From Climacium dendroides (taxonomy: Eukaryota; Streptophyta; Bryopsida; Hypnales; Climaciaceae): a stretch of DNA of 64,000 nt. The stretch lies in assembly GCA_950106755.1 (NCBI GenBank), contig OX467083.1:50730555-50794554 (forward strand). The letters run 5' to 3'. Positions 18,618 through 64,000 of this stretch are shown piece by piece. The first letter of the stretch is position 1. Each line of letters starts with the position of its first letter. A program made the translations under genes and the position numbers. The notes below the pieces were generated by a model that worked only from the letters and a program-made list of their open reading frames with translations, did no database searches and had not been told where the DNA came from.

Positions 18618-20041
18618 GGTTAATGGATGCTATAGATACAATTTTTCTTTTGTTTTAATATGTGACAGACCAGTATATGAAAGTCCATGCTTATTGACAC
18701 CTTTTGGATTAAATGCCATTTCGTCTAAAGATAGACCTTGAGAACGATGAATGGTTCGTGCGGCAGCTAATTGTATTGGAAATTGAATACGAGTAAGGAG
18801 AGTTGTTTGAGTTTGTCCAAACATTGTTTCTTTGTTAAAGCTTCAATAGGTGTCCACAATAATGCAATGCTTTTGTCTTTGTATAAATGAGCATTTGCCA
18901 AACGTGTTAAAAATTCTATCAAAATATATTTCTTTGAATTTGTAATGTTTTGAAAAGACCATCAGCTCCATTAACCAAACCATCATGTGTAGCATAATTT
19001 CCTGCACAAAATTCTACTAGCATGTCTTTTTTAATTTTTATTATTGTATGTAATCCAATTGTTTTGCTAGGATCATTAGGAATTTCGAATGATGCGGACA
19101 AAGAAGGATGCCAAATATCAGTTGTTGTTAAATGATATGTAGGTCCTTTAGCTTGATAAAAAACTTTTGTGTTATGAGTCGTTGTGTCTTTGTTCATATA
19201 AAACAAGTGTGGAATTGTAGAATCATTTGGAGGTGTTTTTAAGCATAATGAATTGATTATGTTAACATCTACAATGGTGTGACATGCCTTTCGAAACCTA
19301 TTTAGTATGTCAATAAAGATTGGATCATTTTGTCGCATCACTATAGTTAGTTCGTAACATTGTGTACATTCATACCAAAAACTAGGTGCTAAATAATTTA
19401 GTTCATGATTTAATTTTTGAAAGACCCATTTATCTCTAACTGGAGGCACTTGATAAAAATTACCACAAACTATAATGTCTAATCCACCAAAAAATTTGTT
19501 TTGAACATGTTTAATAGAGCGAAGTCTTTGGTCAATTGCATTCAACATCCTTGCTCCAACAAGTGATATTTCATCTATTACTATTAGTTTTATTTGTTCA
19601 TATTGATCTGTTAACTTATTTAGCAATTCTGATGACAATTTTTCAATGTTTGATAGTAATTGATTTATTGGAATGTGTAAAGTTGAATGTATAGTACATC
19701 CATCTATATTAAATGCAGCTTTTCCAGTATATGCCATTAGTAGTGCTTTTCGCTTTAAAGGATCTGATTCTATATCACTATGATAAAAGCAGAGTAATTC
19801 TAATACAATAAGTTGTAACGTGAATGTTTTACTAGTACCAGCACCTCCGTTTAGAAATAAATGTATAGGAATAATTGCCTTAACACGCTTTCTATACATG
19901 AGATCATCGTAAATTGCTCTTTGTTCTTCATTTAGATTGCAAAGTAATTTGAAGAAATCTAATTCATTCATTAAATCAACATTTCAAAAAGTATGATGTT
20001 CTAAATTATTGTTGGTGTAATGCTTGGCATGCGGTTGGTTC

Positions 20042-20191
20042 CACTACTAGAAAATTTAGTTTTTCTGTTGTTTTGGTCGCATTGATCCGGTCAAAATCTG
20101 ACAGAAATCTGTTAAAATCAACAGATTTCTGTCAGATTTTGACCGGATCAACGCGACCAAAACAACAGAAAAACTAAATTTTCTAGTAGTG
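20042..20191. mobile_element. CACTA-type hairpin MITE (150 bp) with TTC target duplication
   Basis: A nearly perfect palindrome: two 72-bp arms with one mismatch flank a 6-bp loop. The ends read CACTACTAGAAAA and its reverse complement, the CACTA/En-Spm terminal signature. Flanking bases are TTC at 20039-20041 and TTC at 20192-20194, the 3-bp duplication expected for the superfamily. It has no coding capacity and sits in the linker before the helicase. Confidence 0.92.
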
Positions 20192-26309: not shown

Positions 26310-28400
26310 AAAAAAATTAAAAAGTTGGGTTGTAACACTATGATACAAAGGTAAGGAAAGAATTAAATAAACAGCAAGTTGTGCTAACATTTGTTGTGCA
26401 TTCAAAAATGCATTACCGAGTTTTAAAATCCGTTTATCAGCATCCGTTTTATTTTCTATACATTTTTGAATAATTGATTTTAATTCTATGGTTATACTTT
26501 TATCAACTTTTGTCATGTATGAAGTGCAATAGGTAGCTATAGCATACGAATCTAGTATGAATTGAATATTTGTATTGGCATACCATGTATTTGCTATAGT
26601 TTTATTGAATGCATTAGTACATATATCACAAAGTTTACGTTTCAAAAGTATTTGTGGTCTCTTAAATTGAGTACGTAAACATGTAGTGTAAGTTGACTTG
26701 TCTATATTAAAATGTATTAGAAATTCATCAAAAGTCATTTGTGATTCAATGCCTAACTCTTTTAGAAAATCAAATATGTCTTTATTTTTATTTTTTTGGA
26801 TTTTCTATGTCCTTACTATCAATTGATTCTAAAACCATTGTTGTTTCCATTGGTGGAAGAGGATAATGAAATCTACACACCGGTTGCCCTTTTTTTCTAC
26901 ATGTTCGTGAATGCTTATGAGTTTGAGCTTCTTATAAGGGAAAAAGAAGAAATAATTTGTTTGATGAAATATATTTGTCAACAAAAGTAATAATTTCTTC
27001 ATTAGAATTTATTTTATATTTTGGTGCATTCTTAATCCATATTACTGCATGTTCATGTTCACTACCCCTATGTTGAAATTCAGTGATAAAAAAGAAATTT
27101 ACCACTTCGCCTATAATTGAAGTTTCTTTTTTAATTAATTTTCAAAATGCTTTACAACGATTATTATAATATAATGCACATGTTATTGGATCAGACCTTA
27201 TTAGTTCTGCTATATGAATAGATTCAAGAGAATTGAAATGAGGTAAATTTAAATATTTGGCATTTAATTTGTACAAAGCTTGTATTAGAGGGGTCCACAG
27301 ACGCTCTGCACTTGTCAAAGTAATGAAAAATGTCGAAGGACCTAATTGTCTTATCATTACAAATAAACTTTTCTGTAATCCTTCTATATAATCAGGTGAT
27401 GTACGCAACCTTTCTAAATTACGAAATCCAATGTATGATTGTAAAATTTTATCTAAATTAGGTTCTTTAGCAACCTCATTAGCTGTCAATATTCTTCCAC
27501 TTAATTTTCCTTTTCTGATTCGAATCCAACTAGAATTTTTAACTTTTTCAATGCAAATTTTAATTGCTTTGAAAAAAATGTTTTGAATATTTGTAGCAAA
27601 ATCATGACTTTTATGTAGTAGTTCCCATTTTGCTATTTTATGATAAGACATATTGTTATATATTTTTTCATTTTGAGGATGACCAAAAAACAATGTTGGA
27701 AAATTAAGTTCTTCACTATATTTGTCTTTGAAGATTCTTATAGGATGATACTCTTCATTGGGTGCAATAGATAAATCATTTTTACAAGATGTTGATATTT
27801 TATCATAATCTTGTATAGCTTCAGAGTCTAAAAAATTATGCACCATTGTTTCTGTAAAAACATCTTCGATTTCTTCTTCAAAATTGTCTTGGTTTGCAAT
27901 ATCATCTTCAAAATTATCATTTTCAATTTTTGTTTGCAAATGTATAGCAAACTAACTATTCCATAGAGGATGAATTTTAACATTTAATTCTCTATGCAAT
28001 GGAGTATTCAACAAATCTTTCAATGCTAACATAATCATATTAGGGCGTACATTTCCAGACATAAAAGGAGATTTATAAACTAAACAATGTTTTATAAAAA
28101 TCCCTATTGTACTACCATCTTCAAGTAAACGAGGAAGAACTGATTGTGTTTTATCAATATTTGCAAGAACATTTATAATACTCCGATGCATTTTATATTG
28201 ACCGTAGTTATGTAACTTGTAAATTTGTGAAAATGCTTGCTGGGGTGAAATCAATCTTTCTTCTAAAATGGTAAGTTGCTTCATAGATGGTATAATTGAA
28301 TTCCTATGTATATTATTAGGGACAAAATATAATGGAATTTTATCTTTCTTGATTGCATTCAAACATTGATTGCAAATATACAAATGAATGATTCACTTGC
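26310..28400 (-). pseudogene. Helitron Rep domain (HUH endonuclease), broken
   Basis: Read leftwards: ICNQCLNAIKKDKIPLYFVP with YKMHRSIINVLAN (DUF6570-like N-terminus, 28383-27952), a stop, then the Helitron-like N domain (27939-27142) with PSTFFITLTSAERLW and DPITCALYYNNR. After another stop come GEVVNFFFITEFQHRGSEHE then HAVIW, giving the HUH motif as HEH, a QTHKHSRTC...CRFHYPLPP zinc-type block, and at 26738-26310 IATYCTSYMTK with the paired tyrosines (Y2) of the nicking active site. The product would nick and join single strands at the TC and CTRR ends. Several stops and frame changes make the copy inactive. The retroelement joins at the 26302 end. Confidence 0.9.
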
Positions 28401-33669: not shown

Positions 33670-35833
33670 CTTCTCGCAAGTTCAAACCAAAGCTCCCAAA
33701 GTTACCTCAATGGACAAAAACGCGGCATCTCCGTCCAAGGCAACTCTACAAGTTGGGGGAGCAGATGAAGCGAACAACAAGACTAGAGAACCATATTGAA
33801 CCCTAACCCTCTTCGACGAGAGCGAATGAATGAACCCAGAACAAACGACAACGAACGAAGACTCTAGAAAAGTCATGCAGTGTGAAAACGGTTCTAGATA
33901 AGATTTAGAAACGCTGAACCATAGTCGATGCCATGGTCCGTGTCCAAAGGACAGAGCCAATAAAAAAACCTGCTTCAGACTAATCAAGTTTCATCGGCCC
34001 TTCGACCTTATCCCGCAAGTCCTAAATGTAATGTAATGTAGATCAGTTTGTGTTTGAGGAGCTTACCATCGAATCTAGGATCACGCTACAATTCCAGGAC
34101 CAAAATCTGATTATACTGTTCATTCGGATGAATGAATGTACCCATTTTTGGATGATTATCGTTCTCCTTCGTGTTTCCATGATATTTCATCCATGAAAGT
34201 GGATGAAAGTTGCCTCATCACGCCAGTGAAAGATCCGGCGCTTTCTTCCGTGGCCAACGTAGATGAAGTGAAACAAACCCTGCCTGACCCCTCTAAAGTT
34301 AAGTTAGCAAGGAACGTCGCGAAGGATCGGGAGCTTGAGTGCGTTCCTGCCTTGCCAAGGTCAGACTCCCTTCCGTTTTTTCGCCGCTGCTGGAGCGATC
34401 ATCCACTTGGGGATTCGCATGCATCTGTCTTCTTTCGAGCAATTACTACACTTAGTTGTAACCTCAGTTGGTTTCGCAACGGCATCTACAGCGAGCACAG
34501 CCCGTAGTAGTGGTCGCTTAGGTTTTTACACTCATGCTTTGGGAGCTCAGCACCAGAACTCGCAGCGTTGGAGGTTTACAAGAAGGTTGTTGGAAGAGGA
34601 GGCACATTCAAGACGTTCCTGGCAGAGCGGCTTGTGACTTCGTTCGAGGAAATTTTGCGGGAAAGACCATCGTTTGGATGGTGTGATCCGTTGAGGGTTT
34701 TGGTATGTACAGGAACGTGGGTGGGTTCGGAATTTTCAATTCTTGAATTTTTAGGTAGGATGAGTTGGGTTATCTTCCAAGTGTGGTTCAGGTGGGTTAA
34801 GGCCTGGCTTTAGGTCGCGTGTGTGGGGTGCGTTTAAGAGTTTTGAGTTTTTGACACGGAGGATTGTTGAGGCAGGTGATGTCGATTAAAAGATGGGTAA
34901 TGTTTTGGGGTTTTGAGGAGTCATTTTGTGTTTTCCCAGACCGTGGGTGCTTGCTTTGGAAAGGAAGGGGGTTTGGATTTGGGGAATGACGAGACGCTCA
35001 TTTTAATCGATTTGTTGGCTGAAGCTCTGCTTTCCTTACGTCTGAAGGAAGTTTTTTCTCACGTGCCAAGGATTGCAGTGGTCTGGATACAAGCGAGATT
35101 TGTTTCGTTTGCTTGATGTCTGTGTAGTCCGTTTGTTTCTGTAGGTATCTTTTCTTCGTCTAGTTGCCGTCTGAATTTTGGCTCATAGGGTACTTGGGAT
35201 GAACTTAGCTGTTCATTCGTCATTTTTTTGAGCTTGTTGTAGTGTTGTTTCCGCCGTTTCTGTTCACTTGATGGCTTGGAAACTTTTGTATTCGTTTCTT
35301 TTGAAGCGCAACTTGTCATCGGCGTGCCCTAATGATCATTCTACAGTAGGCATGCCTTTATGCCCGAGCTTCTGGATATAATTCGAAGAAGGATGTACTT
35401 GTTTGTAGAATGTATGAGAGCAATACTGTTCTAGATGAACGTTAAGGTCGGTCGTGTACTTGGGGGCGATTTTGTTCTGCAGGTATGTTTGCTTGTTTGG
35501 AATATTGGATTGTTTTGTAACTGTACTCTGCTGGGGCTACTTGATACCTTAAGAAACAGTAAGTATTATGGTGAAGGTCAAGTTTGTCTTGTGTTTTTCG
35601 GTGTCACAGGGAGATGGAGGTGACGGAGAGACGGTCTGCTGGTTCTATGTTCTCCTCCATTGCAAATTGACTTAAAGATCAGTATGAATCTGGGCTGGCA
35701 GGAGTTGTGATCCTAGTGTTTGTGAGTTAATGGTCGTTGTCTTCGTTTCTATTTCAATCTGATTCTTCTCTTTTGATTGGGATGCCAGAATCGAAAAGTG
35801 AAGGGTCTATAAGCTCTAAAGTGGATCAACATT
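33670..35833 (+). promoter_or_regulatory. Upstream region and probable 5'-UTR of the VARICOSE/EDC4 gene
   Basis: No conserved protein was found in ~2.1 kb. The sequence becomes GC-richer and transcript-like from ~34150. A GT site at 35479-35480 (TCTGCAG then GTATGTTTG) and an acceptor-like GATGCCAG at about 35782-35789 are consistent with a 5'-UTR intron. An in-frame TAA shortly before the ATG at 35834 supports that start. The transcription start cannot be placed from sequence alone. The short frame at 34136-34507 is unrecognised. Confidence 0.4.
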
Positions 35834-43148
<7,315 letters not shown>

Positions 43149-47210: not shown

Positions 47211-49095
47211 GCCGCTCAGAAATACCAACATCATTTACTGCGTCATTCAAGTCGATTTGAGTTTGAGCCTCTAGCATCTGCACGACCATATTCAAGTATC
47301 CTTAGGAATCCACCTCGCGTGACATCCTGCAGATCTAAGGAACTCCTCATTCTAGAGTCCATCAACTTGGTATCTAGCAAAGTCTATTGTTTCCAAAATT
47401 GTGTTCAGCCATTTAATAGGGAGAAGATTCGGGCCTTCCGCGAGCGAATGTACTCCAATACATCATTCAAGTTCAGGTCACACATGAAGACTGATGTACA
47501 TAGGTCAGTGCATCTTGATTGACGTGGGAGGAAGATAGTGACCGTTGAAGGCATCAACGTGTGCATGCGAGCTTGGATGCATATTTCTGGGGTCCTGGAG
47601 GCTACATTCTATCGATACCTCAAATATTGGAAGGACGAACGAGAGGCAAGAGACCATGGAAATACAGGATTGGAGAAGCCGAGAAAGCACACTCAACAAG
47701 CAACTGCCACGCTAAAGTGCATCCTTGAAAAGGAGGTAGATCACATGCCACATCGTACTCGGATTTTGAAGTCAGGGGACAAGGTCATATCCATGTGTCT
47801 TCCCTCTATATTTCAGTGGAAGGGTAAGATGAAAGAAATCAACGATGTCAATATAGCCTTCGGATTACCCGAAGTTTCCACTTCGAACCTGAGCAAGATT
47901 AGGTCCTCGAAGTTCTCAGAGTACGAGGTGAAAAAACCTGGTGATAATTTTGCTTGGTGTTCAGTGTGTGACAAATTACAAGAGCTGTGAAAGAGTTGTA
48001 TTGTTGGATCTCAAAGTGCTTTGATATGGTCAAGGAGGCTTGATAAACATTTGGTTATTGCTCGAGCACATAGGGAGCTCTACTACGCAAATCGTTACCG
48101 CTCGCATGAGTTTCCACATGAATGTTTGACGATCATGCATGACAAGATGGACCATGCCAAGACCGCTTCTCCGGTCTTTTCCCACAAGACTAAAGAACTT
48201 GATGGGTTGATGAAGTTGCCCGTCTTAGTCACTGGCATGATTGCGCATGGTCATGCTGATGTTCGATATGCGCATTATGGCTTGGATATGTTTCCCCACG
48301 ACTCAAACTACACTATTGGCTCCATGGCGAAGTTACTGCGAGATTTGGAATTGCCACCAAAATCGTCTTTTCGGCAATTGTTTACGGGGTCTGGATCTAC
48401 AAATTTATCCAGGGCAATACTGAAGGGTGCCGAAGTTTGGGAAGCATCGCTACCTCCGCTATCAGAAAGATTATGTCCAGAGATGCCGTTGCCTCCTATT
48501 TTGAATGTGCAGATGGATAATGCCACCGGAGATAACAAGAATAGATTTGTTTTCTGTTATTGGTTTCTAGTTGTTGCAAACAAGATCTTTTGTGAAGTGT
48601 ACGTGAACTTTATGATTGTGGGTCATACTCATGACGACATTGATGCACTCTTCGGAAGATGGAGCATGCTTTTGAAGAAGAAAAACTTCTTTACAATTCC
48701 TGCACTTATGAAGTCATTCATGGATGTTGAATCCATTCCGACAATCCCTCACCTCATCGAAGAGGTGCCAGATTTCAAGGGTTTCATAGCAGGCAAAGTT
48801 TTGGACGGCAATGACATCATGGTTAGACACACAAAGCCACAACAAGTGAAGTTCTACCTTGACTCGACTGGGTGTCCAGTCATGAAGTACAAAATGCTGT
48901 GCACTGATGTGGAGTGGTTGCCGAAGGGGACTGGTCATGGAATGAAATTGTAGAAGGAGGACTCTGAAGGGCAAAGTTTGTGGCCACGTGGAGTACCAGA
49001 AGCAATTCTGTCGAGTCCAATAAAAAGTGCAAAGGACATCTTGAAGGGCATATCCAGATTCGTGAGGTATTGGGAGAATTTGTGCAATCAAGATC
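47007..49095 (+). pseudogene. DUF7869-type transposase-like protein, 5' part (element A copy 1)
   Basis: One frame with three in-frame stops: TGA at 47520-47522, TGA at 47988-47990 and TAG at 48951-48953, where copy 2 has tryptophan in KLWKED. Conserved parts: CFQNCVQPF with IRAFRERMYS (~47390-47460), VEGINVCMRAWMH, PVLVTGMIAHGHADVRYAHY, LNVQMDNATGDNKNR, and NFMIVGHTHDDIDALFGRWS. The D in QMDNATGDNKN and the HTHDDID cluster are characteristic of this family, thought to be a transposase/RNase-H-like core; that role is inference. The N-terminal start is uncertain since the first ~70 residues come from the palindrome field. The frame is cut by element B at 49095 and resumes at 57226. Confidence 0.85.
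49088..49095. repeat. 8-bp target-site duplication of element B, left copy (TCAAGATC)
   Basis: TCAAGATC directly precedes CTCGGGGGGTG; an identical TCAAGATC follows the right terminus at 57218-57225. Removing element B with one copy rejoins the element A frame exactly. Confidence 0.95.
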
Positions 49096-49106
49096 CTCGG
49101 GGGGTG
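49096..49106 (+). repeat. Left terminal inverted repeat of element B
   Basis: CTCGGGGGGTG, perfect inverse of 57207-57217. Confidence 0.93.
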
Positions 49107-49529
49107 TAGTCATCGGGCGGATTAGCAAACTATGAGCGAAAAAATGATAGGGTATTTTTTATTCATTTGGGCTAAAAATTATAAAAGAGTTTAGAGTACT
49201 ATAGGGTATAGAATATGGCATTGGATGTCTTTAAAGTACTATAGGGTATGGAATAATAGGCCCCATTAGAAAATGCAGTAGTACTAAAATAGCCCCCTTT
49301 ATATTAAATTCTTTGGCCAAATGTCTGAAATTGCTTATTGTACTATAGGAAATATACATCTTAGTTCATGTAAGACTCTCGGATTCCTACAGTGACTTAA
49401 CTACTCTTACAACTAATTTGTTATACATTGTACATGGATACATAATTTAGGGTCTGACTATTGTAAGTTAATACGGAGTATGATTTAATATTACAGAATA
49501 CAAGATTGTGCAGATCTCGTTTAGGGTAC

Positions 49530-49640
49530 TCAGTGATGGTTTACTGCGCTTAGGGGTCAGTTCAATCTGGCTCAGTGATGGGGTTTTCGGCTTAGGGGTC
49601 AGGGCAATCTGGCTCAACTCGGCTTAGAGGTCAGTTCACT
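49530..49640 (+). repeat. Tandem GGCTTAGGGGTCAG units in element B 5' flank
   Basis: Three imperfect units of ~45 bp each carry CTCAGTGATGG or CTCAACT, then GCTTAGGGGTCAG (GGCTTAGAGGTCAG in the last) and CAATCTGG or a variant. Confidence 0.75.
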
Positions 49641-49759
49641 TGAAGCCGACCGTTGCGTCTGAGTTTGCAAGGAAGAGGTTTAGGGTTTGTTCAATTGGTC
49701 GGGACTGGGTGCAATCTCCCGACGTGTGCAAGAATCCGGCCGTGGCGTGTGCAAGGACC

Positions 49760-50075
49760 TGAGTTTGCTGTTGACGAGGTGGAGGGTTTGTGCAATCAAT
49801 TTGCTTTGGACGAGGTGGAAGGTTTGTGCAAGGACCTTAGTTTGCTGGATACGGGGTTTACGGTTTGTGCGCCCGTTCAGTTTCGGGTGTCCCACAGCAG
49901 CCCTCGTTACGGTTTGGGGCGAATCTGTGTTGTGCATGTAGGGTTTACGGTTTGTGCAATCAATTTCGTTGGATCTGTGTTGTGCGTGTAGGGTTTACGG
50001 TTTGTGCAATCAATTTCGTTGTTTGGCTACGGGTTTGTGCAATCAATTTTGTTGTTTGGCTACGGTTGGTTCGTT
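49760..50075 (+). repeat. Tandem GTTTGTGCAATCAATTT units in element B 5' flank
   Basis: GTTTGTGCAATCAATTT recurs five times (about 49787, 49950, 50000, 50031 and variants). Two near-identical 50-bp units occupy 49923-49972 and 49973-50022 (GTAGGGTTTACGG core); two ~32-bp units with GTTGTTTGGCTACGG follow. A GTGGA(A/G)GGTTTGTGCAA pair lies at about 49780 and 49817. This is upstream of the transposase frame, where a promoter or transposase-binding array would be. Confidence 0.8.
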
Positions 50076-50456
50076 GGGAGCATCCCCAAGCAGCCCTCGT
50101 TACGTTTTGTTGCAAATCCGTCACGGTTTGGTGCAGATCTGTGTTTTGGTTTTAGGCTTTACGACTTCAGGGTTTGGGGAATTGTTTTTTCTGTGTCTTT
50201 TTCTTGCGTGACAGTGTCACATGGTGCCTGGGGTCGCTGCGATCATCTTGGCACCTGCTGCTTTGAGGTATTGCTAGTCTCTGAATTGGGCAACGTAGGG
50301 TTTTGTATTGCGGTTGTCTTGTAGTCTTCAAGCTCTTGTTAATTTGTAGTTTACCTTTCAGGGTTTAGGGTGCATTGTTCTTGCGTTCTAGATCCAGATG
50401 TGCTGCGTGGTGTAATGACAGATTCGATTTGTTGAACGCAGGGTTTAGGGGCGTGG

Positions 50457-53400
50457 ATGATGGCGCTCAATTACAAGATCAGATTGTACTCTGTGGAGGA
50501 TGATGTGGGGTGGCCGGAGCTACTCAGTCCGTTTTTTTGCAACTCCAGCGATACTTATGCGGATTTGCGCATGCGCTTGGAGAACGGGGAATGCGTGGAG
50601 TGGCCTTTCCTTTTTTGGGACTTAGATGATGCATGCCGAATACCAAAGCGGTTCGAGGCCATGAACCCGGTTAAAGAACGCGTTTATGTAATTCCGTCGG
50701 TGGAGGGCGACGCCGGACGTTGCAAGCGGTGTCGTGTTGGGGACCAGGCCGACACGAGGAGCAGCGACTTGGCAGCGGAGCAGCCAGGGCAACTTACGGG
50801 TTTGGGAGGTGTCCAACCGTGTGGCACAGATGTCTTGCACGCCGGTGCTGCACGGACGTTGGAGGAGGCAGGAGTTGTCGGTTTAGGGCATCCCACTAAA
50901 GTTCCAGAATTTCCTGAAGACGACGAGGCTGAGCCACAGCCGACACTGTCACCTACTGATGTGCTCGAGGAGACCCTGCTACAATCCACGCTGTTAGCCA
51001 CTGATGTGCTTGAGAATTACAAGTAGGGTGCAGAAAAGTTGAGAAGGGAGCTAGAGTCACTTGATTTTGCAGATCACAAGTGGGACCTAAAAACTTACGA
51101 TCACTGTGGCTTGGCTGTTGTGAAGATATATTGCGGGGAGTGTAAGAGAGAAATTGGGGGTACGGGCCGTGATCACTCCCGGATTGCAGTGCAAAACCTA
51201 TTTGCAAATTTCAAGAAGAGTCATTTACATTCAACTCTCCACATCAAGCAATGGTGTAGGAAGAGGGGTTTAGTGTACAGCGACCACCCAAAGGAGGGCA
51301 AGTCCAGCAAACCCATCATTTTGACACCAGCAGATCACCGGCGACTCGTGGAGGAAGGCGTTAGCATTCTTCAAAGTGTGAATGACTTGATCTCCTCAAA
51401 TGATCCTCCGTTTGTAATAGTTGGAGATGTGGGTGTTCCCCAGTTGAAGTCCTTTTGGTTCAAGGTGCGCTGCAAGCTCGATGGAGAACTACTGCTCCTG
51501 TGCCCGCAGAAGGGGAACCTTAGACAGAACTTAGAGAATCACGTCCATGGCCTGGTTCATACGAAGTGCTGTGAAGACTTGGCTGCGGCAAGCAGTTCGT
51601 CGAAGAGTTCATGTGCAGTCAGCTCCGGAAAACGGGGGAGACCCACCGCAAAGTCGAGGTCGACCACCGGCAATCAACGCGACCTCCATTTTTGGTTCAA
51701 CAGTTCAGGCAGTGTAGGTTCCGAAGCAGCAGGAGAATCCCCGTTAGGTATGCACTCCGACTCTATTTTGTCGTTGTTGTATTGGGGATTTAGGAAGAAA
51801 ATCGTTGAGTACGCTGGGAAGTCCTATAGAGTCGAGTCGTTGCAGAATGATTCAAAGATTGAATCGGTGTGGATGGCGGAGCCAAGCACAACTGCCGATT
51901 TTGTATTTCGAGGTCAACTTGTTCTTATAAGAGGGTGCTTCCGGCATGTACAGTGTAAACGGTTGTGTGCCACGGGAGAACCCTTTACGAATTTCATTTG
52001 TTCCAATTGCATGGAAATTGAGCAAGCCAATGATTTCAGACTTAGGGTACAAAGGGAAGGTCGTGCTCTTGTCAAGCGTGGTCGCAGGGATATACAACAA
52101 GGAAGAAGGATAGGCTATCTACAGATCACTGAACTGGCCTCACAGTCAAGGACGTTAGGCAGGAAATACCGTGATGAAAAGGCTAGGCACTGGCTCATGA
52201 AGTCTAGGGTCGCGCAATTGAAAGTAAGTCAGCGTGGTTTGAAACTTAGTGCTGTAGAAAATTTTAATAGAAAAGATGTTCTCTCTTTTTGTAACAACAT
52301 ACTGGTGGCTCACAGAACCAACGCCTTCGGGGGAAAGCCAGCTTTGTGGGACTTCCTCAGGGACGTTGCCACAAACTTAAATCGTGTGAGGCAGGGTCAC
52401 AGATTCTCCAAAAATTCAAAGTCATTTGCTCAAGCTATGAGGATATATGGTGGTAGGCGAATGTGTGATTTGTTTACCTTGAATTTTGGTGGGCCGTCCT
52501 ATGATTGTACTAAACGGGAAAATAAGAAAGGGGTTCAATTCATTGCTGGGGAGCATTCTGCATTGTTTGCTGCTGTGGTTGACATTTACAGGGAGGCCAA
52601 AGCGAATCACGGAGTAGAAGGACTTGTTCCTGTCATCTTGGCAGAGGACGAGACAAAAGTCAAGGCTCGTATATCTTGGGACGCTCGGTCTGATGGACTG
52701 GTGGGCTTTTGTGGAGTGAAGGAGAATCATCGATGCGTATCCACCTTCAGGCCTCACGTAGGGAATGGTGAGAGTGGGTATGCAGCCATAGTAGATTCTT
52801 TCCGTCAGAATGACAAGGGGAGTTTTGCTCGTGTCATCATGGTGAATCCTTTGTATGCTTTGTTGCCACGACTTGTACTTGTTGTGTCTAGCACTTGCAA
52901 CCGTTTCAATTCCGACTGGGTCCATAATCAATGGAATACTATTGACACGCTTTGGCAAGACAACTGTGGGCTTGTTCTCGGACCGATTGTGGGGCATTCT
53001 TCCGATGGGGATTCTAGGAAGAGGCAGCTCATGGTCCATGACTACTGTAGCAAGGCGGGGTTCAGGTATGAAATCCCATGGGAAGGCTGGTCCTTATCTT
53101 GTGAATGGCTTGGCGAGAATAAAGTGAGAGGCTTGCATGATCAGGATTTTATTCACAACAGAAAGAAATTAATCAACCCCCTTGACAGCGCTGTAAAGAA
53201 CCTGCAGCTAGGAGCTGATGTCTATTACTTAGATCACCTTGGTCAGGTTTATCAGAGTTTTGGTATTGATCAACATGGTCTTAGAAAGGAAGATGTGGAG
53301 CGCACAGATAGACAGAATTGGGCAAGTGCACAACGAATTTGTGCGAAGAAGGCCAGAACTTGTTTGCAGGAACTGCGAACTACAAGGGACGCACATCAGG

Positions 53401-55073
53401 AGAGAACTTTGGGGACCGAGCTGTATCTGTCTATTTGTGCTGACTATATTGACATCTTCCTTTCCGTGTCCTTGACTTTGAGGGAGAGAGTGGTGCTTGC
53501 TGGCAAAGTGTCATTCTTTTTCAGGATTTGGAAGTTGTGGTTTAGCCATGGTGACCACGGTGTAGGAGGAAATACAAAGAATCTAACGTTGCAAGAATGC
53601 TTCGTAAGCAACCAGTGCTACCTTGACGTGCAGCTCTCGTGCCATTTCGTGGTCTTACTCATAAGGTATTTTCGTGATGCATTTTCTCACTTGCCGGTTC
53701 CACTGCACCTCACAGGATCTGATTCATGTGAAATTTTTTTTAGCAAGGTGGGGGGAATGCAAGGTATGGAGAGAGCGTATGATTTCCAGGAGCTTGTGGG
53801 TTGTGCTAACACGGTGAACCACCTGGCTGCGATTGAATACAGATCTAATGGACTGCAATTTGGTAGAGCGCATAACAAGCAGAAAAACATGTGGGCGGAC
53901 TTGCATCCTCTAGAACGTGGGTAGGCACCTGCAGATTTGGGAGATTATAGCACCCTTGCCACAGATGAGGACTTCGTGGCAGCGTTGAAGGAAGGTCTGA
54001 AGGCAGCCCAATCCCAGTTGAAGGCACTAAATATGGCTCCATCGACTTATGCTAGAAGGAAACAATGGTTCTTACAGCCTTGGACGGTGGAGGGGTCGGA
54101 TCCGAAGCACTGGGCATACGTACCGCCCGAAAAGCCAGTCCCCGGTGAAGATGGCGACGGAGAGGTCATGAGGGACTCCCTTGTTGTGCAGGAAGAGGGA
54201 GACACTGTGGAGCATGACGGTGAACCCTTAGCCCCGGACGAGAGTGCGTTGGACGTTGAGAGTGCCAACCTTGACGCCGACAGGACTGCTGCTGACGCAT
54301 CCTTGGAGAGTGCGGAACACGTTTTGAGTGTTGCCGAAGAAGAGTGCCGGGATGCAATCTCGCAAATGCTGGATTCAGCTGAGTCCAGCCCACCAGTGGA
54401 GCTAACTTCTCAGAACCCTGCACAGAAAATAGAGCCAGTGGTGCATTACAATGGCAGGGCCATTTACAAATCAACGTTGGTGGGCGAATTGAACGGGAAT
54501 CCCTTCCTGTCAAAGGACCGCTTGACTCGCATCAAGAACTCTGTCTACTTCAACAACGCTGAGGATTATCTTGTTGCCGCTAATTCGACCACGACCGCTT
54601 TCTTGGGCCTTGGAACTGACTGCGGAGTGCTATTTATGCAATCTCCCACTGTAGGCCAGAGTTCTGCAGTGAGATCCGCGCAAAAGAGGAACCGCTGTAG
54701 TGCTCAAGTGGGACGCCCGGCTGTTGTGACCACTGGCCCTGACATTGGCACTTGGTGGCTCGGCAGGGTGCAGAAAATGCGGAGGAGGGTTGGACGAATG
54801 TGGGGATTGTGTAGGAACCCAATCGACCTCATGGCTCACACGCCAGCAGGTAAGAAGGTAGGTTCTTCCCCGTCCATTCAAATAATGCTCAATTGGTTCA
54901 AATCAGTGCCAGGGAGGAACAAGTACAAATACGACGTGACGGACACCCAATGGATTGACATTGAGAGCGTGATTTGCACCATTGCACTGTCATTCAATTC
55001 GAATACCAGCGTTTATACCCTACGAGAGGCTGATCGACAGGTGCTAGACGAATTTGTGTCACAAAATACTTGA
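50457..55073 (+). pseudogene. Element B transposase-like protein (one frame with two TAG codons)
   Basis: From ATG 50457 a single frame runs 1539 codons, interrupted only by TAG at 51024-51026 and TAG at 53922-53924. The middle 961-codon block holds YCGECKREIGG then SHLHSTLHIKQW (C2H2/BED-like finger), LCPQKGNLRQNLENHVHG and CKRLCATGEPFTNFICSNC (further Cys/His clusters). A core follows with LAEDETKVKARISWD, GHSSDGDSRKRQLMVHDY and TGSDSCEIFFSKVGG, acidic motifs spaced as in RNase-H-like transposases. The N-terminal ~190 codons (WPELLSPFFCNSS) and the C-terminal ~380 codons (heptad-like LESAEHVLSVAEEECRDAIS; FLSKDRLTRIKNSVYFN) match nothing I know. Catalytic assignment is inference. The TAGs could be inactivating mutations or recoding sites. 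Confidence 0.75.
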
Positions 55074-55269
55074 GCACTGCAGGTGGTCCAAGTAGTTGTA
55101 CCTTGAGCATCCCGGTCTTACAGTTAGCTCTTATTTGTTGTCTAACATGGGAGTTTTGCAACTAGAGTAGCCCTCGCATTTGAAACAAGCAACCTTAGAA
55201 GCTCCTGGTTATGTGTGTGAGGAGAGCTGGCGGAGATACTCGCTCAAGAGCAGGTGAATTCCATCTTGA

Positions 55270-56425
55270 TTGCTGTAGTTTAGGGCATGAACTCCTCCGA
55301 GACGAGTAATGATGTTCGACTTGCTGCTACGCATGCTCTATATAATGCCCTAGACTTTGCTCAAACTAACTTCGAGAATGATATGGAGCGCAACTATATT
55401 ATGAGGGTGGTTTGTGAGACCAACCTCTCACCAGATGTCCGAGTTTGTCGTTGCTGCCTTCGAATGTCTAGTCTCCATTGGCTGCACTTATTATGATAAA
55501 CTTGCCCCATACATGCAAGAACTATTTTGTCACTTCGAAAGCAGTGCAGGAAGATGAAGAGCCAGTTGCACTTCCAGCGATCGAGTTTTGGAGCTCTATT
55601 TGCAATGAGGAGATCGAGATTCAGGAAGACTACCAAGGTGATTTCTTTGGACCTGTAAATTTTTGAAACTCGCTTGTGAACCGTGATCATATCGGTGAAA
55701 TTTTTAGGGGCTGCTTATTAGTACTTGGCTGTGAAGTCCCCTAATACTAATTGTCTTCGATTCAGAGGTGCCTTACTTTCACTTCATGAAACAAGCGTTG
55801 CCTGCCCTCGTTCCGATGTTGCTGGAAACGTTGACGAAGCAGGAGGAAGATCAAGATCTAGACGAAGGGGCCTGGAATTTGTCTATGGCTGGTGGGACTT
55901 GTCTGGGCTTGGTAGCTCGTGCTGTTGGAGATGATGTTGTGCCTCTTGTCATGCCCTTCGTTCAGGAGAACATTTCAAAGGGTGACTAGATATTTCGAGA
56001 GGCTGCTACCTACGCTTTTGGATCCATTTTGGAGGGACCTTCGCTGGACAAGCTAAGTACTCTTGTACATGATGCTCTCCCCTTCATGTTGCAAGCAATG
56101 AAAGATGAGAACAACCATGTGAAGGATACTACAGTGTGGATCCTAGGAAGGATCTTTAAGTTCCTACATGGACCTTCTCTCGAGGCTCCAGTTATTACTC
56201 AATCCAATGCGTGTTCTTGCTTTTACATGAGCTAACCTTTCCATTCTCCGTTTTGCAGCTAAGTTGCAGGCCAAAGCGACCCTCTGGAAGCCACGCAGGT
56301 CCATGGCGGCTGCGGCGCCTGGGCCTCTTGTTCGTCAGCCTGTTCGCCGAGAAGAACTACGTCCAAGCTGGAGCGGTACTTGGAAATATTTCGCCAGACT
56401 TTGAAGAGTATCAGGTATGTACACA
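55270..56425 (+). pseudogene. KPNB1: Importin subunit beta-1 gene fragment captured inside element B
   Basis: Importin beta carries cargo through nuclear pores; here only a middle part of the gene is present. Blocks: VRLAATHALYNALDFAQTNF with NDMERNYIMRVVCE (55312-55420), AAFECLVSI...YYDKLAPYMQ (shifted frame), AIEFWSSICNEEIEIQEDYQ, then an intron of ~130 bp (GTGATT...TTCAG), LPALVPMLLETLTKQEEDQD, GGTCLGLVARAVGDDVVPLV, and after a stop EAATYAFGSILEGPSLDKL and NNHVKDTTVWILGRIFKFLH. The 3' end near 56405 (DFEEYQ) matches a later importin exon end. At least two frameshifts and a stop kill it. The retained intron shows capture at DNA level. A GC-rich piece at 56260-56390 joined to it is unidentified. 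Confidence 0.9.
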
Positions 56426-56579
56426 TTATTTTGTTTACAACCTGTCACCATGCTGGAACTTGGAATGCATTTCGTTTTAGCATAGTTGGTGTACATTTCC
56501 ATTGATGCAAGTGTGTTTGTTGCAATGCAGGTGCAGGGGATTTTGAGCACCGGTTACAGTAGTGTAGGTTAGCCTTAGT

Positions 56580-56735
56580 TTTGTTCATGGACCCATAATG
56601 TGCAAATTCTGGTCCTATTCACTGTGTTTGTAAACACAATGAGAACATTGTTTTTCTTAACTTCTATTATGTTCATGGATACATAATATGCTAACTTTGG
56701 TCCCATTCACTGTGTTTGTAAACACAATGAGCATT
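56580..56735 (+). repeat. ~80-bp tandem duplication with TGTGTTTGTAAACACA palindrome
   Basis: Two units, about 56583-56660 and 56661-56735. Each has GTTCATGGA, CATAATxTGC, GGTCC(T/C)ATTCACTG and the palindromic TGTGTTTGTAAACACA followed by ATGAG. It lies in the element B 3' flank. Confidence 0.8.
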
Positions 56736-57206
56736 ATTTTTCTTACTCCATCATTGTGTACGAAAACTATGTTTGATGTGTGTCCTAATACAGCTCCCAC
56801 ATAAGACTGAATCTTGTGAGATATCAAGTAAAGGGTGACACCAAAGTTTTTTTTGGAGTAAAAGCTTTCTTCTGTCAAATTTCGTTGTAACTTAAATTGT
56901 CGTTGGTCTGAAATTTTCTCAACATTTTTTGGGTCCATGCTGCATTATATATGTCGAGAACATTCCCTAAACCAAACCACCCCATTCAATTTTGGGCCAA
57001 AATTATAGTAGAATAATTTTTCAATATAATTTACCATATCATTTATTCATAGAAAATTGGAATTGTAAGTAATGCAAGCCCCTTCTCTATTAACCCAAAT
57101 TAGAAAATTACATAATTGTAGCATGTGAAAAAAAAAAAAAAAAAGTAATAGCCCCCTATAAAATAGTAGTTGGTCGCTCATATATCCTTATTTTTTTAAG
57201 GCACAG

Positions 57207-57225
57207 CACCCCCCGAGTCAAGATC
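57207..57225 (+). repeat. Right terminal inverted repeat of element B and right target duplication
   Basis: CACCCCCCGAG (57207-57217) is the inverse of the left end; TCAAGATC (57218-57225) repeats the left duplication. Element A coding sequence resumes immediately. Confidence 0.93.
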
Positions 57226-57832
57226 GCACTAGAGAGTACCGAAGACGCTATGAGCACGTAGTGCACTACTGGCAAGGTGTCAAGGTAGCATTGCTAGAAC
57301 CACTACCTTCATCTTCTGTTTTGAAGGATGATTTTTGGCCAACGAGCCGTGTTCAAACAACTTAGGTGGATGAATTAGACGAAGACGGCGAGGATCGTGA
57401 AGAGTTTGGAGAAGATGACGTGTACGTAGGCCTTTTGAGAGGTCGCCCACAGCCATCCTTTAGGGTGGGTCGAGATCTCTTTGAAGGATATTTTGTTGCA
57501 ATTTGACTTGCAAATGGTGACAGTCATCCAGTTTGGATTGCAAGGGCGTTGTCTGATCCAAATTGTAATCTAGAAAAATCTAATTGTGTATTCATTCAAT
57601 ACTTTCGTCCAACATCAAGAGATTAAGATGTTTAAGACTTCTACAGTGGATGGGACAGCGACAGAGGTCTACATTGGAAAGTGGATGAAACTGAACCGCC
57701 ACTTTGGCAGCATACAGATGCTCTTATGATAGTGTGGAAGTCTAGCATCCGAAAAGATACTCGTCAATGCATGATCAAGATTCTTGCTGCTCAAATTGAT
57801 GTTATCAACCAAAGTCTTACATCCTACACTTG
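57218..57832 (+). pseudogene. DUF7869-type transposase-like protein, 3' part (element A copy 1)
   Basis: Continues the frame cut at 49095: QDRTREYRRRYEHVVHYWQG, PLPSSSVLKDDFWP, YVGLLRGRPQPSFRVGRDLF, PVWIARALSDPNCN, VFIQYFRPTSRD, WDSDRGLHWKVDETEP, ending INQSLTSYT and TGA. It is collinear with the intact C-terminus of copy 2 (62458-63160). Four stops break it: after VQTT, after FVAI and twice near RPTSRD. The block FVAxRxxxGDSxPVWIARAL looks like a small beta-barrel reader domain (BAH/PWWP-like), which is only a guess. Confidence 0.85.
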
Positions 57833-58204
57833 ATATCTGTAGCTATGCATGCATATGAATTGCAGGTTTTATAATTATGTTGTTTTCATCGTCATGTTTT
57901 GTGTAACAAAGGGAATTCATATAGTAGATTAGATGGTATAGGTTTGAATGGATTGATTTTATTTTATTGCTTGGTATTGCATTATTGTTTTCAAGGGTAT
58001 ATTTTGTGTTTATAGAACATTGGAATTTAAGTATAGTCTCAATATACTTCTTTTTATATTCTTCAGCTCTCTTTTCTTTATTTTTTACTTCATTATCTTA
58101 TTTATTTATCAGTGAGTATGTTTTATTTCAAATTACATTGTTATTGGAAAAAAAAAGTAGTAGATATATCTACTATTTATTTGGTTAACATATAAAGTAC
58201 TTGT

Positions 58205-58395
58205 CACATTCTGGGTAGGGGGTCGGTTGGTTGTTACAACTTTCCTACCTGCAAAGCTCACTTAGCAACACCAAGTTATGTTGTTCTCTCATACGCTCAT
58301 ACAAGTCCAACGAAAATCGAACCTAGACCGCTTCAATGAGATGAACAACCCCTCACAACCAACCGCGGAGCTCATGACTTGGTGTTCAGAAGATG
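58205..58395 (-). mobile_element. tRNA-derived SINE, copy in element A 3' flank (copy 1)
   Basis: On the - strand: GAGCTCCGCGGTTGG (A-box-like) and, ~45 bases on, GGTCTAGGTTCGATTTTC (B-box-like), then GTGAGCTTTGCAGG and an end at CAGAATGTGACAAG. It matches the + strand copy at 61840-62030 base for base over most of its length. The B-box is slightly decayed here. Confidence 0.65.
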
Positions 58396-58604
58396 ACGTA
58401 ATCTTTATTTATATTAATTATAACATTTACTCTAAACTGAATTACATGTGTTTGAATAGACCATCACTCAAAAGACTCTCATTTTAATGGAAATTGCGCA
58501 TTACAACTAGCAAATTCAGTGTTTGCCCACCTAAATTGGCTAAAATTACAATTCATTTGTTAGGGTCTAAATGGACAATATTATTATGAGAGGCCCCAAA
58601 CCTC

Positions 58605-60560
58605 TCAAAATATTGAATATAGTGTTCCATCAGTAGTACACCCTAAACTAGTGAATTTCCGCTTCACAGTTTTTTCTTGAATGTTGGAAGTTTGCAATTT
58701 AGATTGAGAACTCTTTGAACCCCTCAAAGTAGTACTACCACTTCCACCGTTCAACAATGAGCGTGGAGCGGGTGGAGGATTGGTATGAGGTGGACATTGT
58801 GAACTTTGGACGGTGTCATTTTTGCTATGGCCATTGTGGACCATATTCGGACTTTCGCACTCTTTCAAACCTGAATCCGCCTTGTCCAGTACCTCTAGCG
58901 GTTTAGGGAATAGGGAGCTTGGTCCCTCGATGCTCTTGTCAGCTAATTTTTCTCCAAATTCCAAGCTTGTTTTGTCCACATTCATTTTCTCCCAAGCATG
59001 TAGTTTGTCATTTTCTCCAAGTTGGCCTAATAGTATGGATCACTATAAGAAAACTGCGTCTAAGTTGACGTGGTTTTTTTGGACACCCATGTCGCAACTG
59101 ATGTTTTTATGTCAACAATGATGTCCACTGTAAAATCTTCATATTGTATTGGACATCATTGTTAACATAAAAACATCACTTGCAACATTGGGTGTCCAAA
59201 AAAACCACGTCAACTCAGACATCTGGTTTCTAAGTTTCTTATAGTCGATGGAGACTTGTCACGCTCAATTACTTCATTTTCTTGTAAAGTTTGGCCACTA
59301 GTAACTGTTATCCCGTTTTGAACTGCCTTTTTCACATTCGTGTCCTCTTTGTTTGCCAAAACATTATGGCTATTCAGAAGTCGGCTCCCATCTACAAATC
59401 TCACTATAGAAGGTAGACCTTTGTCTTCTAAAAATTCATACTCATCTCGGTCATTTGGGCCCAAGTCAATGATTTCATCATCATACTCATTTTGTCTTTG
59501 TGACGGTCTACCACGAAAAGCGTGCGTGTCTTCATTCATATCCTCTTCTTCATCGGATTTAAGGTTGTCATCACTTGTGTCTGGTTCCAATTCGGATTCC
59601 CCTCCGTCGTCACTGACCTCCTCATTTCCACGCCGTGGAACATGTTGTTCCTCGACATCATGATCACTGCTTTCATCATCCTTGATAGGCCCCTCGAATT
59701 CCTTTGACTCCACATTCTTGCGGTACCACATCTTCTCATTGTTCTCCTTCAAGGCAGCAAGGACTCTGAAATTGGTAGACACATACACCAAATCCATGGC
59801 TTTCAACTTGTTTCAAGATTTATTATGAACAAAGGAATAGCTACTCCAATTTCGCTCACATGAAGAGGAAGAGACCAATTGCCCTAAAATTCTCCTTGCA
59901 ATCGAAGCAATGAACTTCCCACCAACACCTTCACAATCCCACCAAGAATGTGCCAATAATTTGGACTCGCTTGGATCCAACATATTGTGGAAAGACAGTT
60001 CTTTATGTCGGAAAGCCATGAATTCTTTCACGACGTCAGCGTACTCTCCACGTTTACAAATTCGCAAGAGGACACGCTTGCATGCGTTAATCGCCTTACC
60101 ATCGTCTGCTAGTTCTTTGTCATGAAGCAAGTAGGGATTCAGAAGAGCCCCTGCATATTGAATATCGGTCTCCACCATTTCCCATTGCTCTTAGAATGCC
60201 ACCCTCAATGGTTTTGCAAGCTCCGAACTTAGTTTAAAAGACAAATTCTCCAAAATAATTCGCCACATACTTCCGTATTTTCCTCATGATATGTAAAACC
60301 TTGCCTGTGCATGGCGTCTTTGCATCTAAATCACGCAGGCCATGTACCACGGGGCCCAGCAACTGAACAAAATTGGTGCAACGCTTCCAAAAGTAGCCAT
60401 TGTTAATTATCTTTGTCGCATTTGTAGACTCCTTGCTACCGTTCTTTTTTTTCAATGTCCTCGCATATTCTCACCAACGAGGGTCTGTTACACATTGTTT
60501 TAAAGCACCCTTTACCTTCAACAAACAGTGAAGCGCCATGTAATTAGAGGCGAATCTTAA
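58605..60560 (-). pseudogene. hAT-family transposase, C-terminal part, broken
   Basis: Read leftwards: MRKIRKYVANYFGEF (60300-60240), then 60178-59813 with LLAHSWWDCEGVGGKFIASI and RRILGQLVSSSSCERNWSSYSFVHNK, the hAT C-terminal dimerisation domain, then NKLKAMDLVYVSTNFR. A TGA at about 59822 stands where arginine is expected in KSRNKL; the frame then goes on through an acidic region (DDESSDHDVEEQH) to 59247. A CACTA hairpin (59041-59246) splits the tail, which continues in the same frame to 58605. The N-terminal BED finger and catalytic core are not present; the right end abuts a GC-rich block. It is the remnant of an autonomous element truncated on both sides. Confidence 0.85.
59041..59246. 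mobile_element. CACTA-type hairpin MITE (206 bp) with GAT target duplication
   Basis: The left end is CACTATAAGAAA and the right end TTTCTTATAGTC (last base differs from a perfect inverse). The arms pair through GACGTGGTTTTTTTGGACACC and GATGTTTTTATGT(C/T)AACAATGA blocks. GAT flanks both sides (59038-59040; 59247-59249). Removing it with one GAT restores the hAT frame across the site. Confidence 0.9.
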
Positions 60561-61581: not shown

Positions 61582-61839
61582 CTCAAGGGCGGTTAGAACA
61601 CAATATTCAATATTTTGAGAGGTTTAGGGCCTCTCATAATAATATTTTCCATTTAGGCCCTAAAAAGTGAATTATAATGTTAACTAGTTTAGGTGGGCAA
61701 ACACTAACTTTGCTAGTTGTAATACACAATTTCCATTAAAATGAGATTCTTTTTAGTGATGGACTGTTCAAATACATGAAGTTTGCTTTAGGGTATATAT
61801 TCTGATTTATATAAGTGAAGAGAATGACATCTTTTGAAC

Positions 61840-62030
61840 ACCAAGTCATAAGCTCCGCGGTTGGTTGTAAGGGGTTGTTCATCTCATTGAAGCGGTCCGG
61901 GTTCGATTCCCATTGGGTTTGTATGAGCGCATGAGAGAAAAAACATGACTTGGTGCTACTAAGTGAGCTTTGCCGGCAGAAAAGTTGTAACAACCAACCA
62001 ACCCCCTACCCAGAATGTGACAAGTGCTTT
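61840..62030 (+). mobile_element. tRNA-derived SINE, copy in element A 3' flank (copy 2)
   Basis: AAGCTCCGCGGTTGGTT (A-box-like, ~61850) and GGTCCGGGTTCGATTCCC (B-box GGTTCGATTCC at 61900-61910) are spaced as in RNA polymerase III promoters. GAGCTTTGCCGGCAG and CCCCCTACCCAGAATG follow. The family is unknown to me. It sits at the same place in both element A copies, so it was inserted before they separated. Confidence 0.7.
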
Positions 62031-62457
62031 ACATGTTAACCAAATAAATAGTGGATATATCCACTACATTTTTTTCTCCAATAGCAATGTAATTTCAAAT
62101 AAAATATATTTAGTGATACACAAATAAGAAAATGAATTAAAAAATAGAGAAAATATAGCTCAAGAATAAAAAATATATATATATATATTAAAGACTATAT
62201 TTAAATTCCATTGTTTTGTAAACACAAAACATACACTTGAAAACAATCATGCAGTATCAAACACTAAAATAGAATCAATCAACGGAAACCTATATCCTCT
62301 AAAAAAAACTGAAACGACTATCATCTATTATAATATTAAGGGTCCAACACTTATGCAATGAAAAACAACTTCATATAAGATGTAGAAATAAAACAATACC
62401 CTCCATATGAATGTCATAGTTAAAATGCATCCAATGTATGTACATGATTTCTCCATA

Positions 62458-64000
62458 TCATGTATATGAAGCCAAACTCTGGTTGATGATTTCGATTTGA
62501 ACTGTAGGGATCTTGATTCTGCATTGGCAAGTACCTCTTCTGTTTTGAGACTTCCATGCTGTAATTAAAGCGTTTGTTGTCTCCCACGCAGATTCTTCGG
62601 TTTCATCAACCCTCCAAAGCAAACCTCTATCACTATCCCATCCTTCATAGAAGTCTTGAACTTCTTGATTGCGTGATGTTGGCCGAAAGTATTGAATGTG
62701 CACACAGTTTGGTTTCTCGGGGTTAGAGTTTGGATCAGACAATGCTCTGGCAATCCAAACTGGTTTGCTGTCACCGTCTACAGGGCGAACTGCAACAAAA
62801 TACCCTTCGTATACATCTCGAGCCACCCTAAAGGATGGTTGTGGACAATCCCTCAAGGGCCCAACATAAGGCTCATCCTCTCCATGCTCTTCGAGATCTT
62901 CACCATCTTCGTCTAAATGATCAGCTTCTGTCACTTGAATACGAGTAGTTGGCCAGGAACCGTCTTTTAGAGCACTAGAAGTAGGAAGTGGCTCTTGAAG
63001 AGTTGCCTTTACACCATGCCAATAGCACACCACATTCTCATAGCGTCTACGATGTTCTCCACTCACGTCTGCTCTGCACAAGTCGTCCCAATAGTTTATG
63101 AATCTTGATAAACCTTTGACAATGTCATTGACACCTTTCATTGGGTTGAGTGGTACTGGCAAAGGCACACCACGTGGCCACAGACTCCGTCCTTCATCGT
63201 CTTCTTTCCACAACTTAATGGCTTGACCGTGCCTGCCTAACCAGTTTTCATCCGTGCACTTCAACTTGTACTTCATGACTAGGCATCCAACAGAGTCTAG
63301 GTAGAACTTCACTTGTTGCGGTCTTGTGTGTCCCACAAGGATTTCATCACCATCCATCCATTTTCCTGCAATGAAACGCTTGAAATCAGGCACCTCCTCT
63401 ATGAGGTGAGGGATAGTAGGAATGGACTCAACATCCATGAATGACTTCATGAGCGTCGGAATTGTTGGGAAGTTCTCCTTCTTCAACAGCATGCTCCATC
63501 TTCCAAACAATGCGTCAATGTCGTCGTGTGTGTGACCAACAATCATGAAGTTCACATACACTTCTTTGAAGATCTTGTTAGCAACAAGTAGAGACCAGAA
63601 ACAGAAAACATATCTATTCTTGTTGTCGCCGGTGGCATTGTCCATTTGCACATTCAAAATAGGAGGCAAAGGCACTGCTGGAACTGCATTCATTGGAGGT
63701 GGTGGCAGTGACGCGTCGCACATTTCTTTACCCTGTAGCACTGCCCTGAACAAATTTGAAGACCCTGACCTAGAAAATAATTGCCGAGAAGAAGACTTCG
63801 ATGGGAATTCTAGATCCCGCAACAACTTTGCCATAGAACCAATTGTATAGTTTGAATCGTGTTTAAAGAGATCCAAACCATAATGTGCGTAACGCACATC
63901 TCCATGACCATGAGCAATCATGCCAGTGACAGACACAGGCAATTTCACAAGGCCATCAAGCTCCTTACTCCTGTGGGAAAAGACTGGAGAAGCAGTCTTT
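62458..64000 (-). CDS. DUF7869-type transposase-like protein (element A copy 2), N-terminus beyond window
   Basis: An open frame of 514 codons reaching the window edge with no stop. Family blocks in order: SPVFSH, PVSVTGMIAHGHGDVRYAHY, GSMAKLLRDLEFP, LNVQMDNATGDNKNRYVFCF, NFMIVGHTHDDIDALFGRWS, MLLKKENF, VESIPTIPHLIEEVPDFK, LSRFINYWDDLC, RRRYENVVCYWHGVKA, then an acidic hinge (DEDGEDLEEHGEDE) and a C-terminal domain with YFVAVRPVDGDSKPVWIARA, IQYFRPTSRN and WDSDRGLLWRVDET, ending INQSLASYT at TGA 62458. The DN and HTHDDID blocks are the signature of the family. DNA-cutting activity is suspected, not shown. The intact frame contrasts with copy 1 and suggests more recent activity. Confidence 0.88.
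   Translation of the reverse strand, partial: KTASPVFSHRSKELDGLVKLPVSVTGMIAHGHGDVRYAHYGLDLFKHDSNYTIGSMAKLLRDLEFPSKSSSRQLFSRSGSSNLFRAVLQGKEMCDASLPPPPMNAVPAVPLPPILNVQMDNATGDNKNRYVFCFWSLLVANKIFKEVYVNFMIVGHTHDDIDALFGRWSMLLKKENFPTIPTLMKSFMDVESIPTIPHLIEEVPDFKRFIAGKWMDGDEILVGHTRPQQVKFYLDSVGCLVMKYKLKCTDENWLGRHGQAIKLWKEDDEGRSLWPRGVPLPVPLNPMKGVNDIVKGLSRFINYWDDLCRADVSGEHRRRYENVVCYWHGVKATLQEPLPTSSALKDGSWPTTRIQVTEADHLDEDGEDLEEHGEDEPYVGPLRDCPQPSFRVARDVYEGYFVAVRPVDGDSKPVWIARALSDPNSNPEKPNCVHIQYFRPTSRNQEVQDFYEGWDSDRGLLWRVDETEESAWETTNALITAWKSQNRRGTCQCRIKIPTVQIEIINQSLASYT

Follow-up and report, generated by a model that had tools for sequence, protein, structure and literature searches.

The stretch of DNA considered here, 64,000 nucleotides from the moss Climacium dendroides (GenBank assembly GCA_950106755.1, contig OX467083.1, positions 50,730,555 to 50,794,554 of the forward strand; hereafter the window), contains a gene of the DUF7869 family that is split by an element of 8122 bp. 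Between short inverted repeats, the element carries one very long reading frame broken by two stop codons and, downstream of it, a captured piece of a host gene. It is interpreted as a decayed, full-length cut-and-paste DNA transposon whose transposase forms, at the level of the catalytic core, a deep branch of the P superfamily, a reading to which a probability of about 0.86 is assigned.

The ends of the element, read from this single copy as CTCGGGGGGTG...CACCCCCCGAG, are perfect, inward-facing 11-bp terminal inverted repeats (TIRs). With up to one mismatch allowed, CTCGGGGGGTG matches the window twice, where shuffled sequence gave 0.28 matches on average and at least two in 2 of 100 shuffles. 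The identical 8-bp target site duplication (TSD), TCAAGATC, lies on both flanks, and no further pair of inverted 11-bp words, 0.5–20 kb apart and bordered by identical 8-bp flanks, occurs in the whole window. Since about 3% of simulated windows carry such a pair (8 of 300 order-1 Markov windows, the ends being GC-rich in none of them, and 1 of 30 windows in a smaller initial run), TIRs and TSD by themselves only suggest an element. The 9-bp inner word TATGAGCGA recurs at the matching offset of 36–44 in both ends, and a same-offset run of at least 9 appeared in 10 of 20,000 simulations. The decisive evidence comes from a paralogous empty site: the DUF7869 gene interrupted by the element (PF25273, E 1.5e-41) has an inverted, unsplit paralog in the same window. 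When the flanks were joined with one copy of the TSD, the junction aligned to the paralog without a gap, the closest gap, an indel of 3 nt, lying some 170 nt upstream, with 76.8% identity on the left (930 columns) and 72–85% on the right. The open reading frame (ORF) of the paralog runs uninterrupted through the insertion site, and the encoded stretches match (GISRFVRYWENLCNQDRTREYRRRYEHVVHYWQGVK in the split gene, GLSRFINYWDDLCRADVSGEHRRRYENVVCYWHGVK in the paralog). Because only 3 of the 8 TSD bases match this diverged copy, it gives the boundary and length of the insertion rather than the exact target letters. The boundaries of the element and its 8-bp duplication are thereby established, and the initial annotation, which had described a complete DNA transposon at exactly these coordinates, with an 8-bp duplication and mirrored subterminal words, was correct on each of these points.

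The transposase frame runs from an ATG to a TGA with two TAG codons as its sole interruptions; this agrees with the 961-codon block and the transposase of about 1540 residues proposed initially, and the motifs named at that time (HSSDGDSRKR and GSDSCEIFF among them) are present. Two relatives, P0001 and P0003, read through both positions at which the window copy has TAG. With two in-frame TAG codons the whole protein cannot come from one frame in this copy, which, judged from its sequence, is dead as a source of it; the copy would have been mobilised before it broke, or in trans.

The AF2 model of the protein, a modelling step already recommended in the initial annotation, predicts an RNase H-like core of the P type that is interrupted by a helical insertion domain. 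Comparison with known P elements draws on PMC8230255, PMC7776569, PMC7466625, PMC4455052 and PMC1562414. In the fly P transposase the catalytic residues are D230, D303 and E531 together with D339xxH, and the contacts to GTP include D444, N447 and D528; the signature of the superfamily is given as a DDE triad plus a [C/D](2)H motif after beta-5 (PMC8230255). The corresponding residues here, by conservation and predicted secondary structure, are D541, D660, D707xxH710 and E902, with D707 directly after a predicted strand (703–706), as the P motif is after beta-5. Conservation was followed in A3, an alignment of 21 hand-picked rows, in which D541, D707, H710 and E902 are present in 21 of 21, D660 in 18 (one N, two gaps), D761 in 20 (one R), N764 in 20 (one D) and D899 in 17 (three N, one E). 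The signature is thus conserved in plant and animal relatives. From its first to its last Asp the insertion measures 192 residues, versus 189 in fly P, and the D-x2-N and D-x2-E patterns are common to both, the resemblance to the GTP site being one of residue pattern.

Further likenesses to the Drosophila P transposase (PDB 6p5a, 6pe2) are the 8-bp duplication that marks the P superfamily and a G at the end of both transferred strands, a coincidence with a one-in-four chance by itself. The differences are considerable: identity is 14% over the aligned core, 46 more residues lie between the first two Asp, the TIRs measure 11 bp instead of 31 and the element 8.1 kb instead of 2.9 kb, and the protein of about 1540 residues has a C-terminal module resembling BAH domains and no Pfam-detected THAP domain. 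The spacing from [D]xxH to the catalytic E, at 195, is close to the 199 reported for hTHAP9, and the zebrafish P-like element likewise has an 8-bp TSD, short TIRs (13 bp) and subterminal repeats; a THAP domain sets both of these systems apart from the element described here.

At the level of sequence, the link to P is faint. Profile comparisons used, besides A3, the alignments A1 (22 of the 37 relatives of the middle piece of the frame plus the window copy) and A2 (25 of the 66 proteins obtained from a more distant member), and Pfam was also scanned with 60 members of a set A7, 25 of 29 families being listed for the latter. The family PF21787 (TNP-like RNase H N) appeared at E<=1 in 3 of 23 A1, 1 of 25 A2 and 5 of 60 A7 members, with best values of 2.6e-4 and 2.2e-3 in two fern members, neither of which reaches the cut-off; the matches that do so come from three Nymphon models only, which are composite. 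PF21788, the GTP-binding insertion, was matched by P0018 at 0.13. One further test of sequence-level similarity to P transposases gave 0 of 8, searches of PDB with sequence profiles of A1, A2 and A3 returned nothing on P, and the window's own ORFs matched no transposase family in Pfam. No THAP domain is among the Pfam matches listed for the window ORFs and the A1, A2 and A7 members, many of which are N-terminally incomplete; C2H2-like fingers occupy its place. Since an N-terminal THAP domain is ascribed to “all the known P proteins” in PMC1562414, the element is, on its sequence, not a member of the classical P/THAP9 family. The initial annotation had named P, set it aside and left the superfamily unassigned, a position that the fold and the catalytic signature now contradict. 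The confident match to an existing superfamily which it held would overturn it has been obtained from structure; the counterpart in sequence is weak (PF21787 at best in one relative, 2.6e-4, which falls short of the cut-off).

Table 1. Features of the element and its insertion site (positions in the window).
Feature	Position	Strand	Basis or remarks
Left part of split DUF7869 gene (PF25273)	47991..48953	+	Pfam
Left TSD TCAAGATC	49088..49095		
Whole element, 8122 bp	49096..57217	+	Ends, TSD, paralogous empty site
Left 11-bp TIR CTCGGGGGGTG	49096..49106	+	
Inner inverted word TATGAGCGA, left	49131..49139	+	Offset 36–44 of left end
Tandem 50-bp and 33-bp repeats	49923..50067	+	Upstream of coding frame; possible subterminal binding sites
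Transposase frame, 1539 codons incl. stop	50457..55073	+	In-frame TAG at 51024–51026 and 53922–53924
N-terminal domain, ~84 residues	50457..50710	+	Common to 7 plant-group relatives; possibly ubiquitin-like (weak)
C2H2-like finger 1, C-x2-C-x26-H-x5-H	51132..51242	+	Sequence and alignment; no Pfam finger match
C2H2-like finger 2, C-x2-[CD] ... H	51471..51560	+	Alignment; no Pfam finger match
FRH-x2-C ... C-x2-C cluster	51930..52016	+	In plant-group and animal-group consensus
RNase H-like core, first part (predicted)	52626..53144	+	D541 (52647–52649), D660 (53004–53006); AF2 model, fold match, conservation
Helical insertion domain (predicted)	53145..53720	+	In place of P element GTP-binding domain; D707-x2-H710 at start, D761-x2-N764
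End of RNase H core (predicted)	53721..53924	+	D899-x2-E902 (E 53730–53732), then second in-frame TAG
LSKDRLTR motif	54507..54530	+	Recurs in plant-group, animal-group and other relatives
C-terminal BAH-like module	54591..55064	+	Fold; PF01426 in relative P0116; module profile
Captured fragment of importin subunit beta-1	55183..56287	+	Several frames; intron-like sequence retained
Two 88-bp tandem copies near right end	56579–56745		With palindrome-like TGTGTTTGTAAACACA
Inner inverted word TATGAGCGA, right	57174..57182	-	Offset 36–44 of right end
Right 11-bp TIR CTCGGGGGGTG	57207..57217	-	
Right TSD TCAAGATC	57218..57225		
Right part of split DUF7869 gene and downstream homology to paralog	57226..58627	+	
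Paralogous unsplit DUF7869 ORF (empty site)	62458..63999	-	513 aa; runs off window

The most serious alternative, partly compatible with placement in P, is that the element represents an independent superfamily, the sister group of P, in which case the shared core would be ancient and a separate name justified. The sequence gap, with no convincing sequence-level match and PDB profile searches that miss P, argues for it, and so do the extra insertion, the absence of THAP among the Pfam matches listed and the BAH-like tail, a C-terminal module found family-wide. In PMC4455052, Repbase is said to split superfamilies when transposases fail to converge at E<0.005 by PSI-BLAST; the PF21787 values of the two fern members lie under that line, though they come from hmmscan and not from PSI-BLAST, and both the fold and the GTP-site pattern are P-like. 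A separate superfamily is considered possible, but the less favoured outcome. That there is no single element at all, the ends being a chance pairing and the frame a host gene, is barely credible: the simulated windows show that TIR and TSD pairs do arise by chance, but the ungapped empty site refutes this reading, and the inner word at equal offsets, the transposase fold and a near-identical second copy (P0095) count against it as well.

Other superfamilies were considered on account of the TSD length. Elements of the hAT group make 8-bp duplications and often carry BED-type fingers, but the closest solved fold is not a hAT transposase, and the P-level fold match argues against this assignment; Hermes, a hAT transposase, gave a far weaker match, the DxxH motif is of the P type, and neither the C-terminal hAT dimerisation family nor any other hAT family is among the Pfam matches listed (window ORFs, A1, A2, A7), leaving a hAT element very improbable. 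KDZ/Zisupton and Novosib elements also make 8-bp duplications, which is all that speaks for them; no KDZ family is among the same Pfam matches and we know of no Novosib profile model, and an element of either kind is regarded as unlikely, if slightly less so than hAT. Kolobok (TTAA), Dada (6–7 bp) and Academ (3–4 bp), also considered, were set aside on account of the 8-bp TSD. Transib/RAG1 gave a far weaker match, and Transib makes 5-bp duplications.

The open pieces of the frame were searched separately for relatives. The middle piece (51027–53924) found 37, with 81–84% identity for the closest and lengths of up to 1530 residues, Calypogeia fissa (a liverwort) and Adiantum nelumboides (a fern) among the sources. 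A further protein, P0095, shows 96% identity over 453 residues, which makes several copies in this genome or a sister genome probable. The search from a distant member gave 66 proteins including the query and three already known, the named ones being from Mytilus, Amphiura, Desmophyllum and Nymphon, and a third search gave 20 proteins, 18 of them new. The named relatives thus span liverwort, fern, mussel, brittle star, coral and sea spider. Profiles of the plant and animal groups, whose alignments share row P0033, aligned over 980 columns with an hhalign probability of 100. In a tree of 44 of the 118 sequences, a single branch (SH-aLRT 100) unites the 17 plant-group rows, the organism being named for few rows; the animal and third groups take their names from the search that found them and are not single branches in the tree. 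P0097, P0100, P0102, P0104, P0106 and P0107 are grouped as a deep third branch of the family. Scans of viral contigs with A1 and A2 found no relative and thus no virus-borne copies with readable ends. The view that this is a poorly described lineage is upheld; its description as a plant transposon is likely but not proven, Calypogeia and Adiantum being the closest named relatives.

The C-terminal module is common across the family and looks like the BAH histone readers, judging by its modelled fold and by the Pfam match of one relative (PF01426 in P0116, residues 699–793, E 3e-5). It is predicted to fold like the BAH domains of AIPP3, EBS/SHL, Rsc2 and DNMT1; the top rows of the VIA fold matches were AIPP3 (7.7), Rsc2 (7.4) and EBS (7.4), and 82–88 residues of these three superposed on the module at 2.6–3.5 Å. 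A module profile matched all 16 further members, which were hand-picked, two of them with weak scores and the other 14 with E values no higher than 5.4e-13; within the third branch the module was seen in P0097, P0100, P0102, P0106 and P0107. The BAH match of the window's own module never rose above the usual significance, and BAH was absent from the two matches of the PDB sequence-profile search. We know of no BAH-like module in THAP9 or the zebrafish P-like element.

Taken together, these parts suggest how the transposase may have worked. Binding of the TIRs and inner words would fall to the C2H2-like fingers together with the helical region that precedes the core, and D541, D660 and E902 would cut the ends by DDE hydrolysis. 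A nucleotide, probably GTP, held by D761, N764 and D899 of the insertion domain may position the terminal G of the transferred strand, after which the ends would be joined to target DNA with an 8-bp stagger. The BAH-like module probably serves as an anchor that holds the complex on a histone or nucleosome, and it may influence which targets are chosen.

Regarding the N-terminal domain, the best PDB profile match was a ubiquitin domain (E 1.1, not significant), and a DIX-like Pfam family was matched in 2 of 60 A7 members at E 0.019 or worse; a PRKD1 ubiquitin-like match in P0115 was discarded since it falls within the core. The importin-beta fragment lies downstream of the coding frame and ahead of the right end, in transposase orientation and shifting frames; the element would have taken it up from a host gene at some stage. 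The one piece compared with PDB matched importin-beta chains (best E 8.7e-14), and HEAT repeats were found in one of two further pieces. An intron-like sequence ending in CAG is kept between the pieces, so that the insert looks like a genomic fragment and not a retrocopy.

In the surrounding window, the copies of the DUF7869 region are inverted and 72–91% identical (47991–48953 with 57226–58627, both +, and 61596–63999, -). The split gene has several additional stops of its own, a C-terminal stretch belonging to the unsplit copy, PVWIARALSDP...VHIQYFRPTSR, also appears BAH-like by eye, and DUF7869 itself may be a mobile-element protein. A Helitron_like_N domain (27145–27951, E 1.4e-8) and a PIF1-like helicase (18922–19983, E 1.5e-29), both on the minus strand, are probably the remains of a Helitron. 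Open frames of 324, 248 and 640 codons at 35813–40378 (+) have no clear Pfam family apart from one weak WD40 match, and a hairpin of 72 nt at 20042–20191 is nearly perfect (99% complementarity, 6-nt loop).

General classification tables of transposons assign the P superfamily to plants and animals alike. The P-element papers, PMC1562414 among them, place the group in dipterans, several vertebrates and Ciona. No report of P elements in bryophytes or ferns, or of BAH domains in transposases, was found among the top-ranked papers of the literature searches (at most 20 of up to 3,750 per search), with subscription papers and Repbase entries mostly outside the search. If a P-type branch exists in a liverwort and a fern and has relatives in molluscs, echinoderms, corals and sea spiders, the P core would be far more ancient and widespread than the THAP-bearing form known from textbooks. 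Such a branch would separate the essential parts of the core (RNase H and the insertion domain) from the exchangeable THAP, and proteins that lack a Pfam family and are at present annotated as “hypothetical protein” would acquire a name and a mechanism. More tentatively, this may be an ancient transposon branch common to plants and animals whose P-type transposase, possibly dependent on GTP, has a BAH histone reader built in and chooses chromatin of a given histone state. If true, it would be the DNA-transposon counterpart of the chromodomain integrases of retrotransposons, and, should the tail prove to be a functional histone reader, chromatin-based target choice by a DNA transposase would become directly testable.
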